From an uncultured Clostridia bacterium (GTDB lineage: Bacteria > Bacillota > Clostridia > UBA1381): DNA of 44,060 nucleotides. Below, piece by piece: positions 1 to 6,754 of this stretch; position 1 is the first letter of the stretch, and every line of letters starts with the position of its first letter. Location of the stretch: NCBI GenBank assembly GCA_904420525.1, contig CAJFVT010000132.1, positions 1 through 44,060 of the forward strand. Direction: 5' to 3'. The notes under the pieces are model-generated. The model made no database searches. It saw nothing but the letters and a program-made list of their open reading frames with translations, and was not told where the DNA came from. The translations under genes were made by a program, and so were the position numbers.

Positions 1-2
1 AC

Positions 3-80
3 TACGAAACGACAGTTTCACGCAGAGGGTTAGCAGACTTCACCGATAGGATGTTTGAGTATGCAAAATCGTGTATATGA
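3..80 (+). CDS. C-terminal end of a LytTR-family response regulator (AgrA-like), truncated by window start
   Basis: Open frame from base 3 reads YETTVSRRGLADFTDRMFEYAKSCI* and overlaps the next gene by ATGA; LytTR-like tail in agr context. Confidence 0.6.
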   Translation, partial: YETTVSRRGLADFTDRMFEYAKSCI

Positions 81-1459
81 GTTTAAACGTAATTAATATT
101 ATTATATCTGTTTTTATTGAGAGCTTTTTATTAATATACTACTGCAATTCATCAATGGAATGCAAGGTATCAAAGACCAGGAGCGAAATTATTATCGCAA
201 TCGGATACCTCATTTACTGTGTTTTGTGTTTACTGAAAATAATGATAGTAAACATATGCGGTTTTGCCTTAATCACTCTTCTGGTCATATTGGCTGGATA
301 TAAGATAACAGTTAGACTTGCAATATTTAAAAGTTTAATACTTACTGCTCTTATGATGTTTGGTGAGCTAATTGGCTCATTCATTGTAGATACAGAAATA
401 TCTAATAATTTCATAACAAACATTACATTTATAGAGGGTGTAGTATTTTCGCTACTTTCCAAATTGTTGTATTCACTGTTTATCGTTATTCTCAGACAAA
501 TAACTGCAGCGAAGAATGGAGAATATACCACTAAAGAAATGACTTATCTTTTGCTTCTTCCGATATCGACATGTCTTTTCTTCTTTCTGTTTAATGATAT
601 AAGATTTACTCTTGCAGATGAAATTAGATTTCTATTTATAATATTTGGTATAATGTTGATATTTTCTAATTTCATAGTATATATAGTTTGTGAAAAAATA
701 ATTGTAAGCAATATTCAGATACAGAAATTAAAGCAGATCGAGCATAAAAGAGAAATAGACGAAAAAAGCTATCAGCTTGTAAAGAACAATTTTGAGGATA
801 TGAAAATAATGATCCATGATTTTAATAAGTACTGCAGCCATATAGAGGCAATGCTTGACAATGACCGTGAAGATGTCAAGACCTTTATAAATTCTATAAG
901 GCGCAAAAATAAAGCTCTGATGCTTACAGACTATACTAACAACAAGGCTCTTAATCTTCTTTTGTCACAAAAGCTCCGCGAATGCAGCGATCTGAGTATA
1001 AACTTTCAATTTAATATCCGCAGCACCGATCTCTCATTTATAAGCGAAAGCGACACTATATCTATATTTGCAAACCTTATAGACAACGCTATCGAAAGCT
1101 GCAATATATCTGAGAATAAGGATATAATCCTGAACATATACACAATAAACAACAGCTTTGTTGTTATATCTATAAATAACGGCGCTGACTTTGAGCCTGA
1201 CGTCTATAACGGCAGACTGCGTACAAGGAAGACCGATAAGGACAGTCACGGCATAGGCATGCTTAGCATCAAAAAGGCTCTTTCCGCTTACGATGGTGAA
1301 ATGAAGTGGAGCTATGACAGCGACAACAAGCTTTTCAATGTTTCTATCCTTATAAATTTAGAAAAATATAACAAGAAAGATGACCGAAGTTGTCAAAAAT
1401 CGACCGAAGTTGTAAAGGCTATTGACTCAGAAAAAGAACCGGTATATAATAATACATAA
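77..1459 (+). CDS. agrC: AgrC-like sensor histidine kinase (multi-TM N-terminus, GHKL ATPase C-terminus)
   Basis: N-terminal hydrophobic helices, then MIHDFNKYCSHIEAML, NLIDNAIESC (N box) and SHGIGMLSIKKAL (G box); followed by agrD/agrB. ATG at 77 preferred over GTG at 71. Confidence 0.85.
   Translation: MSLNVINIIISVFIESFLLIYYCNSSMECKVSKTRSEIIIAIGYLIYCVLCLLKIMIVNICGFALITLLVILAGYKITVRLAIFKSLILTALMMFGELIGSFIVDTEISNNFITNITFIEGVVFSLLSKLLYSLFIVILRQITAAKNGEYTTKEMTYLLLLPISTCLFFFLFNDIRFTLADEIRFLFIIFGIMLIFSNFIVYIVCEKIIVSNIQIQKLKQIEHKREIDEKSYQLVKNNFEDMKIMIHDFNKYCSHIEAMLDNDREDVKTFINSIRRKNKALMLTDYTNNKALNLLLSQKLRECSDLSINFQFNIRSTDLSFISESDTISIFANLIDNAIESCNISENKDIILNIYTINNSFVVISINNGADFEPDVYNGRLRTRKTDKDSHGIGMLSIKKALSAYDGEMKWSYDSDNKLFNVSILINLEKYNKKDDRSCQKSTEVVKAIDSEKEPVYNNT
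1382..1450 (+). promoter_or_regulatory. LytTR/AgrA-type operator plus sigmaA promoter for agrDB, embedded in the 3' end of agrC
   Basis: Direct repeats GACCGAAGTTGT at 1382 and 1402 (20-bp period), TTGACT 1422-1427, 17-bp spacer, TATAAT 1445-1450. Confidence 0.75.
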
Positions 1460-1483
1460 TTATAATAAAAGGAGTTGTTGAAA

Positions 1484-1639
1484 ATGAAGAACAAGATCAA
1501 AAAGGTTTACTTTGCTCTCATGGGGATAGTACCCGTATGCGCAGCATTCATGGTATCGACCGTTGTTAATTCCACATCCTGCTGGGCTGTAGGTCAGGAC
1601 GAAGTACCTGCGGGCGCAAAGAAATTCCGCAAATTCTAA
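1484..1639 (+). CDS. agrD: AgrD-like cyclic (thio)lactone autoinducer prepeptide, 51 aa (below ORF-track cutoff)
   Basis: MKNKIKKVYFALMGIVPVCAAFMVSTVVNSTSCWAVGQDEVPAGAKKFRKF*; AAGGAG RBS; amphipathic leader, Cys core, acidic/Pro motif, basic KKF tail; directly between agrC and agrB. Confidence 0.88.
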   Translation: MKNKIKKVYFALMGIVPVCAAFMVSTVVNSTSCWAVGQDEVPAGAKKFRKF

Positions 1640-1642
1640 AAC

Positions 1643-2242
1643 ATGTTCAAGGTGTTGTCAGGCTCGATAGCAGATAGAGCGATCAAAAACGGAGCTGTAA
1701 AATCTGAGGACAGGGAATTGACCGTATACGGTATAAATACCTTTCTTACAATTGGCGTGAATATCATATCAGCCTTGCTTATAGGCTTGATATTCAATAT
1801 GCTCATCGAGATCGTGCTGTTTCTCGTTGTTTACAAGCTGCTGAGGAAATACATAGGCGGTATACATGCAAACACAGCCCTAAGCTGTTATTTATCATCA
1901 TGCTTAACATACATAGCCGTGCTTACATGCATAAGATTTTATGATCTTCCCGGCGCTGTAACGACAATACTTGTATTATGTTCATCGGTGATACTGTGGA
2001 TACTGGCTCCTATAGAGGCAAAAAAGAAGCCTCTGGACGAGCTTGAGTATAAGGTGTTCAGGCGCAGAAGCCATATAATGATAATCATATGCTTTTGTGT
2101 ATTCGCAGCCTTTCATTATATACCGGTGCTTAATGCATACTCCGCAGCCGCAGCTATCAGCATATACACAGTCAGCATATTTGCAGTTTTCGGAAAGATA
2201 TCGATATTTAGATATCACAAAAGACAACATAATAGCTTGTAA
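1643..2242 (+). CDS. agrB: AgrB-like peptidase/AIP processing membrane protein
   Basis: Multi-TM protein with KLLRKYIGGIHANTALSCYLSSC (conserved His/Cys catalytic region of AgrB). Confidence 0.9.
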   Translation: MFKVLSGSIADRAIKNGAVKSEDRELTVYGINTFLTIGVNIISALLIGLIFNMLIEIVLFLVVYKLLRKYIGGIHANTALSCYLSSCLTYIAVLTCIRFYDLPGAVTTILVLCSSVILWILAPIEAKKKPLDELEYKVFRRRSHIMIIICFCVFAAFHYIPVLNAYSAAAAISIYTVSIFAVFGKISIFRYHKRQHNSL

Positions 2243-2256
2243 ATTTCTTTTTATCT

Positions 2257-2290
2257 AAGTCCCGAAATCAAAAGTTTTTGGGACTTTTTT
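2257..2290 (+). terminator. Rho-independent terminator of agr operon
   Basis: AAGTCCC...GGGACTT stem followed by T-run. Confidence 0.75.
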
Positions 2291-2321
2291 CTTTATTGTT
2301 GTGTATAATTAACAAATCCAT

Positions 2322-2390
2322 GACCGAAGTTGTCCATATCCGACCGAATATGTAAAACCTATTGACAGATTATTAATAGAAATATATAAT
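2322..2390 (+). promoter_or_regulatory. Second LytTR/AgrA-type operator plus promoter (P3-like)
   Basis: GACCGAAGTTGT at 2322 and GACCGAATATGT at 2342 (20-bp period), TTGACA 2362-2367, 17-bp spacer, TATAAT 2385-2390; same geometry as the agrD promoter. Confidence 0.78.
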
Positions 2391-2392
2391 AT

Positions 2393-2510
2393 GTTTGTAA
2401 ATAGTGTTATTCCAAAGCTGTCCGGATAAGCTGAGCCTTTCCACGACTGAAATATTTCAAATAAAACTCAGTTTATCCGGGCAGCCTCATTAACACTGTT
2501 TATAACATAC
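2393..2510 (+). ncRNA. Long structured 5' leader or regulatory RNA downstream of P3
   Basis: Inner stem 2417-2435 / 2467-2485 (19 bp, two G-U pairs) and outer stem about 2395-2409 / 2491-2505; apical TGAAATATTTCA palindrome; predicted +1 near 2397 at the stem base. Confidence 0.6.
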
Positions 2511-2696
2511 AAAAACAAAAAGAGAAGCTGTACAAAAATCAAAATAAGACTGGAAACCCTTATAAACGATTTATGCAAAGCATCTCTCCGATATAAGTAT
2601 ACTACAAACACTTTTATATGTGACCATGATGAATACGAATTTTACACCGTATTTTACCCTGAAACTTAATTGATCGATTTTGGGAGGTAATGTCAT

Positions 2697-4475
2697 ATGA
2701 AAAAGCGATCTATCGCACTCACAGCAGTATTTACAGCTTTATCTGCTTTATTATCCGCTAACGCAGGCACGGTCAATTGGACCGTGCTTGCATCGGAACA
2801 AGCAAACACCGGCGATAATGCCGCAGCGGAAAATATAACGTCAACTCAAGCTCCGTCCTCAAGCGGAAGATATACGGATGATGCGGGAAATATATATAGA
2901 TACTCGATCATAAATGATGGTGCTGCAGTATCTATAGATGGAAAGAGTCTTATAAAAAGCACGGAAATTGTACTTCCTTCATATATTGAGGGTTTGCCGG
3001 TCGAAACTGTAGATGGCAATGTGATCAGAAATACAAATGTCACATCGATCACTCTGCCGGAAACATGTAAAAAAACATATGGATTTTTGAATAATACTAC
3101 AATTGAAACTGTGACACTGAATGAAGGTTTGGAAATAATAGAATCACACTGCTTTGAGGGATGCACCTCTCTGACAAGCATTAATATTCCGTCAAGTATT
3201 ACAATAATAGAAAAGGATACATTTATCAATTGCACCTCTCTCAAACATGTTAAATTCTCAAACGGCCTTATAACTATTGGAGAGCGTGCATTTTCTCACT
3301 GTGACTTAATTGATATTAAACTTCCTGACACACTTGAAACTATTTACGGAAAGGGGTTTGGATTCAATTCATCAGTGAAAGAAATTATCATTCCCTCAAG
3401 TGTAAAAACTATATGCAATAGTGCTTTTATTAAATGTGGGCTTGAAAAAGTACAGCTACACAGTGGAATTCAGACTCTTGAAGCTGGCGCATTTTCAGGC
3501 TGCGATAATCTTAAAGAGATAACCGGACTTACAGATTCACAAATAGCAAAATTCTGGCTTGCATATAATGATACACCTTGGGCCAAATCCATAGTCAATG
3601 AAGAAGAACCGTTTATCATAGATGATAACAATAATCTTGTCGCATACGTAGGAAACGAAAACAACATAGTGATCCCGGATGGTGTAGAGGTGATAGGTCA
3701 GGATGCTTTTTCCGGAAAGGATATGACATCAGTAACTATTCCTTCAAGCGTAACGAAAATAGAACGCACAGCATTTTATGGCTGCGAAAATCTTGAGAGC
3801 ATAACTATTCCGGCATCTGTAAACAGCATCGGTCAATTAGCATTTTCGCACTGCACCAAACTAAAAAACATTACCTTCGAATATTCCAAGGGAATACTTT
3901 CGCTCGGCAGCAGTGCATTTCAATTTACTGCTGTAACCGCCGATACTTTAAATACTAATAAGCGAAAGTATACAGACCAGCAAAATCCGTTTGCGAACAC
4001 TGCCCTTGATCCCGAATATGCTCCCTCAGAAACGATCTTACCATCAGGATCACCTGAACCGGAGGAAACACCTGTACCTTCCGCTTCGGCACAGCCCACT
4101 GAGATACCGGAAGCAGCCGGAGAGCTTGACGTTTCTGTGAACAACGGAGAAGTTTTGATATCAGTAAACGGATCGCCTGTAACATTCCCGGATGAAAAGC
4201 CTTTCATCGACAGCAATGACAGAACACAGATACCGGTAAGAGCAGTAGCCGAAGCCTTTGATTGCAATGTGGACTGGAACGGCGATACACAGACAGTTAC
4301 TATAACAAAGGATGATAGGCTTATAGTTCTCAATATAGGAAACAAGAATATGCAGGTGGATAAAGAGATAATCACAATGGACACTGAAGCACAGATAATC
4401 AACGACAGAACATATATTCCTGCCCGCTTTGTGGGAGAAGCACTTAACATGAAAGTGAATTGGGATAATAGATAG
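2697..4475 (+). CDS. Secreted BspA-like leucine-rich repeat protein with C-terminal copper amine oxidase N-terminal-like (stalk) domain
   Basis: Signal peptide MKKRSIALTAVFTALSALLSANAG; repeated SITIPSSVTKIERTAFYGCENLESI units; PFIDSNDRTQIPVRAVAEAFDCNVDWNGDTQTVTI...RTYIPARFVGEALNMKVNWD. Confidence 0.87.
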   Translation: MKKRSIALTAVFTALSALLSANAGTVNWTVLASEQANTGDNAAAENITSTQAPSSSGRYTDDAGNIYRYSIINDGAAVSIDGKSLIKSTEIVLPSYIEGLPVETVDGNVIRNTNVTSITLPETCKKTYGFLNNTTIETVTLNEGLEIIESHCFEGCTSLTSINIPSSITIIEKDTFINCTSLKHVKFSNGLITIGERAFSHCDLIDIKLPDTLETIYGKGFGFNSSVKEIIIPSSVKTICNSAFIKCGLEKVQLHSGIQTLEAGAFSGCDNLKEITGLTDSQIAKFWLAYNDTPWAKSIVNEEEPFIIDDNNNLVAYVGNENNIVIPDGVEVIGQDAFSGKDMTSVTIPSSVTKIERTAFYGCENLESITIPASVNSIGQLAFSHCTKLKNITFEYSKGILSLGSSAFQFTAVTADTLNTNKRKYTDQQNPFANTALDPEYAPSETILPSGSPEPEETPVPSASAQPTEIPEAAGELDVSVNNGEVLISVNGSPVTFPDEKPFIDSNDRTQIPVRAVAEAFDCNVDWNGDTQTVTITKDDRLIVLNIGNKNMQVDKEIITMDTEAQIINDRTYIPARFVGEALNMKVNWDNR

Positions 4476-4506
4476 CCTGTATAAAATATTGTTTTTAATT
4501 TATTAA

Positions 4507-4546
4507 AAAAAGAGCGGCATTTTTCTGACATTGCCGCTCTTTCTGT
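4507..4546. terminator. Bidirectional terminator between convergent genes
   Basis: AAAGAGCGGCA ... TGCCGCTCTTT with flanking A-run and T-rich tract. Confidence 0.75.
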
Positions 4547-4548
4547 TT

Positions 4549-5895
4549 TCAGCTTCCATTTGCAGAAAGAAGACCCAGCGCGGCCAGTATCGTTCCGCTT
4601 ACCGCCTCCCAGTCCTCTGTTGTTATCTTGAGCAGATCTACATATTCTCCGCTCTTTGAAAAGCCGAAGTCACTGTCGTATTCCTCAGCCAGCTCTGTGC
4701 TTCCGGTCAGTCTGACTGTATCGTTTATATTTATATCTACATTTGAAAACGACACAGATGTGTCCGTTCCCATCTTACCGTATGCGCTGACGTCAAGCAC
4801 AATATCATCCATATTATAACGGATCCCAAAACTATTACTGTCAGATTCGATTGTCAAAACAGTTGCATTACCAATACTCACACTGTCATTAAAATTCCCG
4901 TTTGCGCCTGTGACAACGCGCCTTAAAGCATTCTGGACATCACCATTTTTATATACAATGATATCGCTGAATATATTGCTGCCGCCTCTGAGCGAAACTG
5001 TGTACGTATCGCCGCCGTCACGGCACACATCCAGCTCACGAAGCTTCAAATCATTTACTTTCAGCGTTATGTCATATTCTCCGCTCAAAACACTGAGCGA
5101 ATTTTTAATATCATCCGCCGCCTCTGCTTCAGAGATCCCGCTTTCCGCCGCTATCGCTTTTACCTTTTCAGCTCCGGCAGGAGTCGAACATATATATTCG
5201 GACAGCAGAGAAAGAACATTATCACAGAATTCCATGCTCAGATGCATTTTATATACATCAGCGCCCCTGGTCTTATTGTCTATCGTAACATTTGCTCTTC
5301 CGGCTTTATTTATTTCAACAGTTTGTGCGGCAGCCTTAAGCTCAGCATTTTTAGACTCTATAAAGCCGCTCAGCCCGTAATCTCCGGTCAAAAAGCCCCG
5401 CAGTATCTCCGCCGCAGCTCCGCTTTCAGGGAGCTGAAAAACAGATCCGAAAATAGATCCGTTCCATTCCTTCGTAAAATTATTTACCGGAAGCCTAAAG
5501 CCTCCGTTAAAAAGAGGTGTGCTTATCAGCAGCTGCTCACTGTCCTTGTATGTTTCAAATTTGAACCTGTCGTACAGATCGATCTCGGATACGGAGCATC
5601 TCCCGTCGCTGTTTACAATAATATTTACCGGCATACCGGCAAACACAGACTCCTCGGCTGCGCTCAAATTGAGCGTGAGCTTTCCGCCCTCATCTGAATA
5701 ATGCTTTATCAGCTCCGAATCTGTTTTGTCTATATATTCGAACGCGCTGTCCAGCTCTTCTCTAGTATTGAGCATACTCAGCAGCACGACCCTGTCCGGA
5801 GTTACAAAATACTTGTAAACACCAAATATTCCCGCTCCTACAGCCGCTGCTCCCGCAGCGGCGGATATTATTATGATCTTAGTCCTAGAACTCAT
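4549..5895 (-). CDS. Membrane-anchored hypothetical protein
   Basis: Single N-terminal TM (IIIISAAAGAAAVGAGIFGVYKYFV) and long extracytoplasmic domain; family not recognised. Confidence 0.7.
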   Translation of the reverse strand: MSSRTKIIIISAAAGAAAVGAGIFGVYKYFVTPDRVVLLSMLNTREELDSAFEYIDKTDSELIKHYSDEGGKLTLNLSAAEESVFAGMPVNIIVNSDGRCSVSEIDLYDRFKFETYKDSEQLLISTPLFNGGFRLPVNNFTKEWNGSIFGSVFQLPESGAAAEILRGFLTGDYGLSGFIESKNAELKAAAQTVEINKAGRANVTIDNKTRGADVYKMHLSMEFCDNVLSLLSEYICSTPAGAEKVKAIAAESGISEAEAADDIKNSLSVLSGEYDITLKVNDLKLRELDVCRDGGDTYTVSLRGGSNIFSDIIVYKNGDVQNALRRVVTGANGNFNDSVSIGNATVLTIESDSNSFGIRYNMDDIVLDVSAYGKMGTDTSVSFSNVDININDTVRLTGSTELAEEYDSDFGFSKSGEYVDLLKITTEDWEAVSGTILAALGLLSANGS

Positions 5896-5908
5896 TTTTT
5901 GACCTCAC

Positions 5909-6754
5909 TCAAATAGAAAAATACGGCCTTAGCTCCTCTATGCCCTTGAGCATATCCTCATATTCAGGGAAATCAGCCTTTATCCTCCTTATGCACCGGC
6001 GGCAGAAATCTGCGCGCAGCGCGCTGTTTTCACGCATCTGCCGCTTCATTCCCCATGTATGAGTAAACCATCGCTCACCATCCTTAAAAAGTCTGTCAAG
6101 CGTAGATATCACATACATATTCAAACCCAGCATAGCGCTGCACATAGGAAGCAGTCTTTGCTCAGCAAAAACCATATATGTAAGATTATCTCCGCCCTCA
6201 GTATTTTCCATAAATCTTACCGCCTCGCCGGTATAAAGCTTCGCCAGCTCTTCATTCTTTATGACATAGAATGCCGTGTTCGCCGGACGCAGACGCCAGT
6301 TCAGATCAGGATCGAAAATATAGCCCTGCTTCATATTAAAATGAGAAATATCCGGATATACGTCCGGATATATATCCTCATCATGGATAACTGCTATATC
6401 ACCCAGATTATCAAATGCGAGCTTATCCCAGACTATAAAATCAGTATCCATTACCGCTGCCGGAGTTCCGCTGTACATAAGGGAATATATCTTTCCGGCT
6501 GCCCAGAAAACAGCAGGGTCTATACTGTCCGGTATGCCGTCAAGCTCTGTCGTTATTTCGTTCCATATCCCGCACATACCGCGCTCTTCATAGTAACGCA
6601 GCCCTTCACTGTCAGTTATCATCTTTATCCTGCCGTTTTTTTTCCGCCATTTAAGAGCGGATAATATGGTTGTAAGTATATCAAAATCATCCGCATAATA
6701 TATACCATCCGATTTCATTCGCGGCGCAGTCCAGTTTGAATGAATAGCGTCCAT
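5909..6754 (-). CDS. Glycosyltransferase-like hypothetical protein
   Basis: Intact 281-aa ORF with AVMDTDFIVWDKL DxD-type motif; weak family assignment. Confidence 0.5.
   Translation of the reverse strand: MDAIHSNWTAPRMKSDGIYYADDFDILTTILSALKWRKKNGRIKMITDSEGLRYYEERGMCGIWNEITTELDGIPDSIDPAVFWAAGKIYSLMYSGTPAAVMDTDFIVWDKLAFDNLGDIAVIHDEDIYPDVYPDISHFNMKQGYIFDPDLNWRLRPANTAFYVIKNEELAKLYTGEAVRFMENTEGGDNLTYMVFAEQRLLPMCSAMLGLNMYVISTLDRLFKDGERWFTHTWGMKRQMRENSALRADFCRRCIRRIKADFPEYEDMLKGIEELRPYFSI

Follow-up and report, generated by a model that had tools for sequence, protein, structure and literature searches.

A stretch of 44,060 nucleotides from an uncultured Clostridia bacterium (hereafter the window) carries what is, in our judgement, probably a quorum-sensing locus of the agr type, in which the locus's own LytTR response regulator activates two tandem promoters. 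The locus reads agrA-agrC-P2-agrD-agrB-P3 (Table 1), with agrD directly upstream of agrB, and the first promoter, P2, overlaps the last ~25 codons of agrC and faces agrD-agrB. What is new here is the tandem P2/P3 plan, together with a probable antisense RNA and a series of cargo cassettes; the 20-bp phase of the operators, which a sequence-only reading of this DNA had put forward as a special feature, is ordinary for LytTR sites, because repeats that lie 11-13 bp apart and ~10 bp upstream of the -35 element are usual for this family (PMC6193735). Three elements go beyond that earlier reading: the P3 leader with its fold, a probable RNA gene on the opposite strand, and the cargo cassettes.

Table 1 Features of the agr-type locus in the window, and further members of the candidate antisense RNA family.
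Feature	Position	Strand	Remarks
agrA-like LytTR response regulator, 3' end	3-80	+	last 25 codons; rest lost at contig edge
agrC-like sensor kinase, GHKL domain	77-1459	+	ORF; PF14501 E 2e-19, 70 bits
Module 1 (P2)	GACCGAAGTTGT 1382-1393, GACCGAAGTTGT 1402-1413, TTGACT 1422-1427, TATAAT 1445-1450	+	
P2 operator	1382-1413	+	two 12-bp direct repeats, period 20
P2 core promoter	1422-1450	+	TTGACT-N17-TATAAT; 11/12 consensus positions
agrD, signal precursor	1484-1639	+	TIGR04223 quorum_AgrD (NCBIfam) 23 bits, cut-off 19
agrB, signal-processing membrane peptidase	1643-2242	+	PF04647 E 2e-35, 122 bits, cut-off 23
Intrinsic terminator between agrDB transcript and P3	2257-2294	+	11-bp stem plus T tail
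Module 2 (P3)	GACCGAAGTTGT 2322-2333, GACCGAATATGT 2342-2353, TTGACA 2362-2367, TATAAT 2385-2390	+	
P3 operator	2322-2353	+	two 12-bp direct repeats, period 20
P3 core promoter	2362-2390	+	TTGACA-N17-TATAAT; 12/12 consensus positions
Long 5' hairpin of P3 leader	2391-2512	+	apical GAGCCTTTCCACG kept in L044
sRNA-like gene, antisense to leader (candidate family member)	2505-2624	-	promoter, hairpin AGAGAGAT...CTTCTCT, U-tract; model R1 96 bits
Antisense RNA family member, L044	3541-3661	+	
Antisense RNA family member, L051	1970-2088	+	
Antisense RNA family member, L155	1501-1620	-	
Secreted protein, presumed P3 cargo	2697-4475	+	BspA-type leucine-rich repeats PF13306 E 4e-63; Cu_amine_oxidN1 PF07833 E 3e-35

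Two promoter modules of one plan flank the signal genes

The sequence-only reading had proposed two LytTR-type operator/promoter modules of the same plan, ~940 bp apart, that resemble the staphylococcal agr P2/P3 pair except in pointing the same way, and this proposal held up well: the positions that it gave for the 12-mers, the -35 elements and TATAAT are exact to the base, its '20 bp' is correct as a start-to-start distance, both P2 and P3 lie on the + strand, and the modules flank agrD-agrB, with the two-promoter plan and a locus-specific operator kept in relatives. The full-module pattern, defined as a repeat matching at at least 9 of 12 positions at period 20, with the -35 in phase, a 17-bp spacer and a -10, matches in the 44-kb window at 1422 and 2362 only; it has no match on the opposite strand of the window and none in 100 dinucleotide shuffles, and the chance expectation for the repeat pair in the window is 0.00. 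The second 12-mer of the operator stops 8 bp upstream of the -35, which together with the period of 20 agrees with the spacing of LytTR direct repeats. The core of LytTR operators is [TA][AC][CA]GTTN[AG][TG]; judged by eye, the window repeat ACCGAAGTT deviates from this core at GTT, and relatives match it, for example L048 with ACCGTTTAG. We note that the P2 operators are overprinted on C-terminal kinase codons, at 1382-1459 of the window (DDRSC and STEVV, in two frames).

The window starts in the end of a probable LytTR regulator gene, which supports the P2/P3 reading. The fragment of AgrA that is present, YETTVSRRGLADFTDRMFEYAKSCI*, aligns by eye to the C-terminus of AgrA from the related locus L044 (..YEITPSRRGAVNFRNAMFEHAKSI*), and it is from this intact orthologue, with its Response_reg and LytTR domains (PF00072 and PF04397), that the adjoining regulator, of which the window has the last 25 aa only (encoded at 3-77), is judged to be a LytTR protein.

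A further suggestion of the earlier reading, that the operator could define a regulon genome-wide, was not supported by scanning: in the bacterium's own genome (2.5 Mb, 88% complete) the repeat pair is unique to the agr locus, where it occurs at the two modules, the two extra sites that appear when 3 mismatches are allowed are both unconvincing, and the window operator was found in none of 15 congeners. As the genome encodes eight further LytTR proteins above the family cut-off, one of these might read the operators in place of the adjoining AgrA. We consider this very improbable given that the operator is confined to the agr locus and that operator changes in relatives track the locus.

The two-promoter plan recurs in related loci

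AgrB relatives were gathered from the family, order and class, and the larger loci were inspected. A search with AgrB alone returned no close relatives in genome contigs or viral contigs; close relatives were recovered with alignment A1 where AgrB alone had failed. A second module stands 3' of agrB in 10 of the 13 testable loci (6 clear-cut, the remainder by eye), a count from which L045 was left out because its sequence is cut off. A strict scan found both modules in the window, L044, L046, L048, L051 and L087 (= L174, = G218), the last of which belongs to another family of the same class. The second modules called by eye are those of L047, L050, L053 and L054, three of which (L047, L053 and L054) are degenerate or divergent, with a P2/P3 identity of 0.45 in L047 and L053; L049, L052 and L091 have no P3 module.

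Operators vary by locus (GACCGAAGTTGT, GACCAATCCTGC, AACCGTTTAGGC and CAGCATTTGAAC are examples), and the identity between P2 and P3 operators averages 0.73 within a locus versus 0.49 between loci, a result reached in 0 of 200,000 permutations in which, because the sequences are related, the compared loci are not independent trials. That P2 and P3 share an operator within each locus is what would follow from a single regulator acting on both promoters of its locus. Autocorrelation at lag 20 across 20 modules is 0.58, versus 0.18-0.30 at other lags.

In the window itself the 47-bp units of modules 1 and 2, at a measured offset of 940 bp, are 83% identical, a likeness that would also be seen if module 2 were a silent copy left by local duplication. 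We find such a copy hardly credible, however, since the second modules of relatives mostly have a near-consensus -35 and -10, and since the modules were kept while the stretch between agrB and P3 diverged (55%). Our preferred reading remains that P2 and P3 are both working promoters of a single regulator.

Predicted signal peptide and circuit

In AgrD from 14 of 14 relatives, C, S or T stands four residues ahead of the Gly of a conserved GQ (C/S/T-x-x-x-G-Q). From this pattern we infer that the signals are five-membered (thio)lactones closing on the Gly of GQ; the ring predicted for the window is Cys-Trp-Ala-Val-Gly (CWAVG), preceding QDEVP, with SxxNG or TPING elsewhere. Ser or Thr replaces Cys at the ring position in agrD of L047, L048, L049, L050, L053, L054 and L091, for which lactone rather than thiolactone signals are therefore predicted.

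In the mechanism that we propose, AgrB would convert AgrD to the cyclic peptide, and its sensing by AgrC would yield phosphorylated AgrA, which would occupy each direct-repeat pair on one face of the helix, beside the -35. P2, from within the end of agrC, would amplify agrDB and so provide feedback. P3, past the agrB terminator, would be the output, with a predicted transcript that starts with a long folded 5' leader and runs on into the gene for a secreted surface protein. The terminator 3' of agrB (2257-2286; to 2294 in Table 1) suggests that the P3 transcript is separate from that of agrDB.

P3 is followed by a conserved, folded leader

The P3 leader (~300 nt) folds far better than shuffles do (z = -6.5 for the whole leader). 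Comparison of its 5' hairpin between the window and L044 gives 27 consensus pairs, of which 0 are broken, with 5 one-sided changes and 1 two-sided change, and the conserved apical loop is pyrimidine-rich. Between the same two loci identity is 87% in the leader tail, as against 78% for agrB DNA and 43% past the element, and despite the common leader the downstream proteins are unrelated (17%). The idea that the terminal hairpin is a MITE was dismissed, as the genome has only one copy of the 306-bp leader and the arms differ in sequence without loss of pairing. A short palindrome resembling GTGAGNTTATCACA recurs in the forward P3 leaders of L048, L051, L165, L167, L161, L153 and L155, and might represent either a conserved hairpin of small size or a protein site.

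These properties raise the question of whether P3 serves chiefly to make a regulatory RNA that acts in trans, as an analogue of RNAIII, with the downstream gene incidental. A leader more conserved than the adjacent coding DNA and shared by loci with unrelated downstream proteins, its strong fold and conserved apical loop, and the case of L046, where no secreted gene stands close downstream of P3, would all suit such an RNA. We nevertheless judge it unlikely. The leaders of L053 and L169 are short (~100 nt) and run directly into a secreted gene, and it was on finding these that the idea of P3 giving an RNAIII-like RNA only was demoted; moreover, a signal-peptide frame stays beside the leader in cassettes, no terminator was detected upstream of 2697 in the path of the P3 transcript, and a search of window positions 1-6000 against Rfam, taken as far as E = 5, did not return RNAIII. 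The leader's Rfam matches (microRNAs and others) are weak and far under gathering scores, and no hld-like small conserved peptide was seen among the leader's listed ORFs. We favour P3 as an output promoter whose leader continues into the secreted-protein gene.

A candidate RNA family lies antisense to the leader

Opposite the tail of the leader, a short RNA is probably transcribed from a promoter of its own, antisense to the leader and convergent with P3. Members follow a common plan on the minus strand, TTGACA-N17-TATACT, then AAGAGAGAT...CUCU and then a U-tract; TTGACA is present in 11 of 12 members, a TATACT/TATAAT-type -10 follows at ~17 bp, and the U-tract is found on the minus strand only. 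In the window copy the promoter is GTCACA/TATACT, with a degenerate -35 where relatives have TTGACA, and the antisense RNA may therefore be weak in the window. A covariance model matches in 10 of 70 family genomes, with about ten members strong and the last few weak, and it scores the opposite strand far lower. Across 12 sequences, 14 two-sided changes were counted in the closing helix, a figure reached in 0 of 500 shuffles and far lower in slid controls, in a test that leans toward the model because the alignment was fitted to it. As no Rfam family matches this RNA, we regard the element as a candidate for a new small RNA family.

In relatives, the element lies ~66-78 nt 5' of the ATG of the secreted-protein gene and is divergent from that gene. 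This fixed distance could instead mark a cis-acting hairpin within the P3 leader, with no separate RNA and with the apparent promoter being a protein-binding site; the hairpin is near-symmetric, so that both strands fold, and the window -35 is degenerate. Such an arrangement seems to us quite unlikely, given the near-constant TTGACA with its -10 at ~17 bp, the strand-specific U-tract and the far lower opposite-strand model score. Taking the element as an antisense RNA, we suppose that it could oppose P3 output before quorum, tune it, or act in trans.

Cassettes place the same control region before unrelated secreted proteins

In relatives a unit of operator, leader, antisense RNA and signal peptide appears to be reused before unrelated secreted proteins. 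Two pairs of cassettes, each pair within one genome, are 100% (L153/L163, genome G069) and 96% (L165/L167, genome G029) identical over 330 bp upstream, and this identity of 96-100% spans from ~-450/-510 through the signal peptide. The paired signal peptides are 81-93% identical and the mature proteins 11-18% (unrelated), an apparent exchange of cargo at the signal-peptide boundary.

LytTR-like modules also precede cassettes without agrDB (L166, L165/L167, L161 and L169). The operator of L169 is ACAAATGTTGCA twice and that of the agrD promoter on contig G069:C194 is ACAAATGTTGCA/ACAAATATTGCA, the first repeats being equal and the second nearly so. At L169 (G069:C8, near 2600-2984) and L166 (G069:C78) the 3' end of a kinase gene gives way directly to an operator-promoter and then a secreted gene, with neither agrD nor agrB present. 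Cassettes often have a second gene behind them with SLH or Cu_amine_oxidN1 domains, which suggests surface display; among the secreted proteins of 170-210 aa, six matched no Pfam family.

We tentatively raise the possibility of quorum-controlled cargo switching, in which operator, leader, antisense RNA and signal peptide would stay fixed while the mature protein is swapped by recombination, and in which the antisense RNA, as a new family, might restrain P3 transcripts below quorum. If so, a population would alter its secreted product under quorum with its control unchanged.

Comparison with known systems

RNAIII-type second promoters are classically staphylococcal. To have a second AgrA-type promoter conserved in gut Clostridia would show how an agr locus acquires a dedicated output. 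The sharing of one operator by P2 and the targets would give a rule by which the agr regulon of uncultured bacteria could be read from sequence, and an opposite-strand RNA family with swapped secreted cargo would be new.

The streptococcal blp bacteriocin clusters (BlpR, LytTR family) reuse one operator/promoter and leader peptide before differing secreted cargo. Unlike blp, the cassettes described here carry a folded leader and an antisense RNA, and their cargo consists of 170-210 aa Sec-type proteins or larger surface proteins rather than small double-glycine peptides. The HdrRM and BrsRM systems of Streptococcus mutans, which combine positive autoregulation with control of bacteriocin genes, likewise use direct repeats 11-13 bp apart, 4-11 bp upstream of the -35 (PMC6193735), but they have no AgrB/AgrD peptide signal and no matched pair of promoters around signal genes.

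Closer in gene order is agr2 of Clostridioides difficile, which shares with the window the order agrACDB and a REC-LytTR AgrA (for the window, predicted from the L044 orthologue); the portion of the C. difficile account drawn on here puts forward one transcript spanning agrACDB, and it reports neither an RNAIII transcript nor a second promoter such as that of the window locus (PMC3754575). The agr system of Staphylococcus aureus has the same AgrA-AgrC-AgrD-AgrB parts and a P2/P3 pair, its two regulator-dependent promoters serving the signal genes and a structured RNA, RNAIII, which is also an mRNA encoding delta-toxin (PMC3673130). Compared with S. aureus, the window lacks an Rfam RNAIII match and has its genes in the order agrACDB, P2 being placed within the end of agrC; its P3 lies downstream of agrB in tandem with P2, whereas the staphylococcal pair is divergent, and leads to a large secreted protein, with a probable RNA on the opposite strand.
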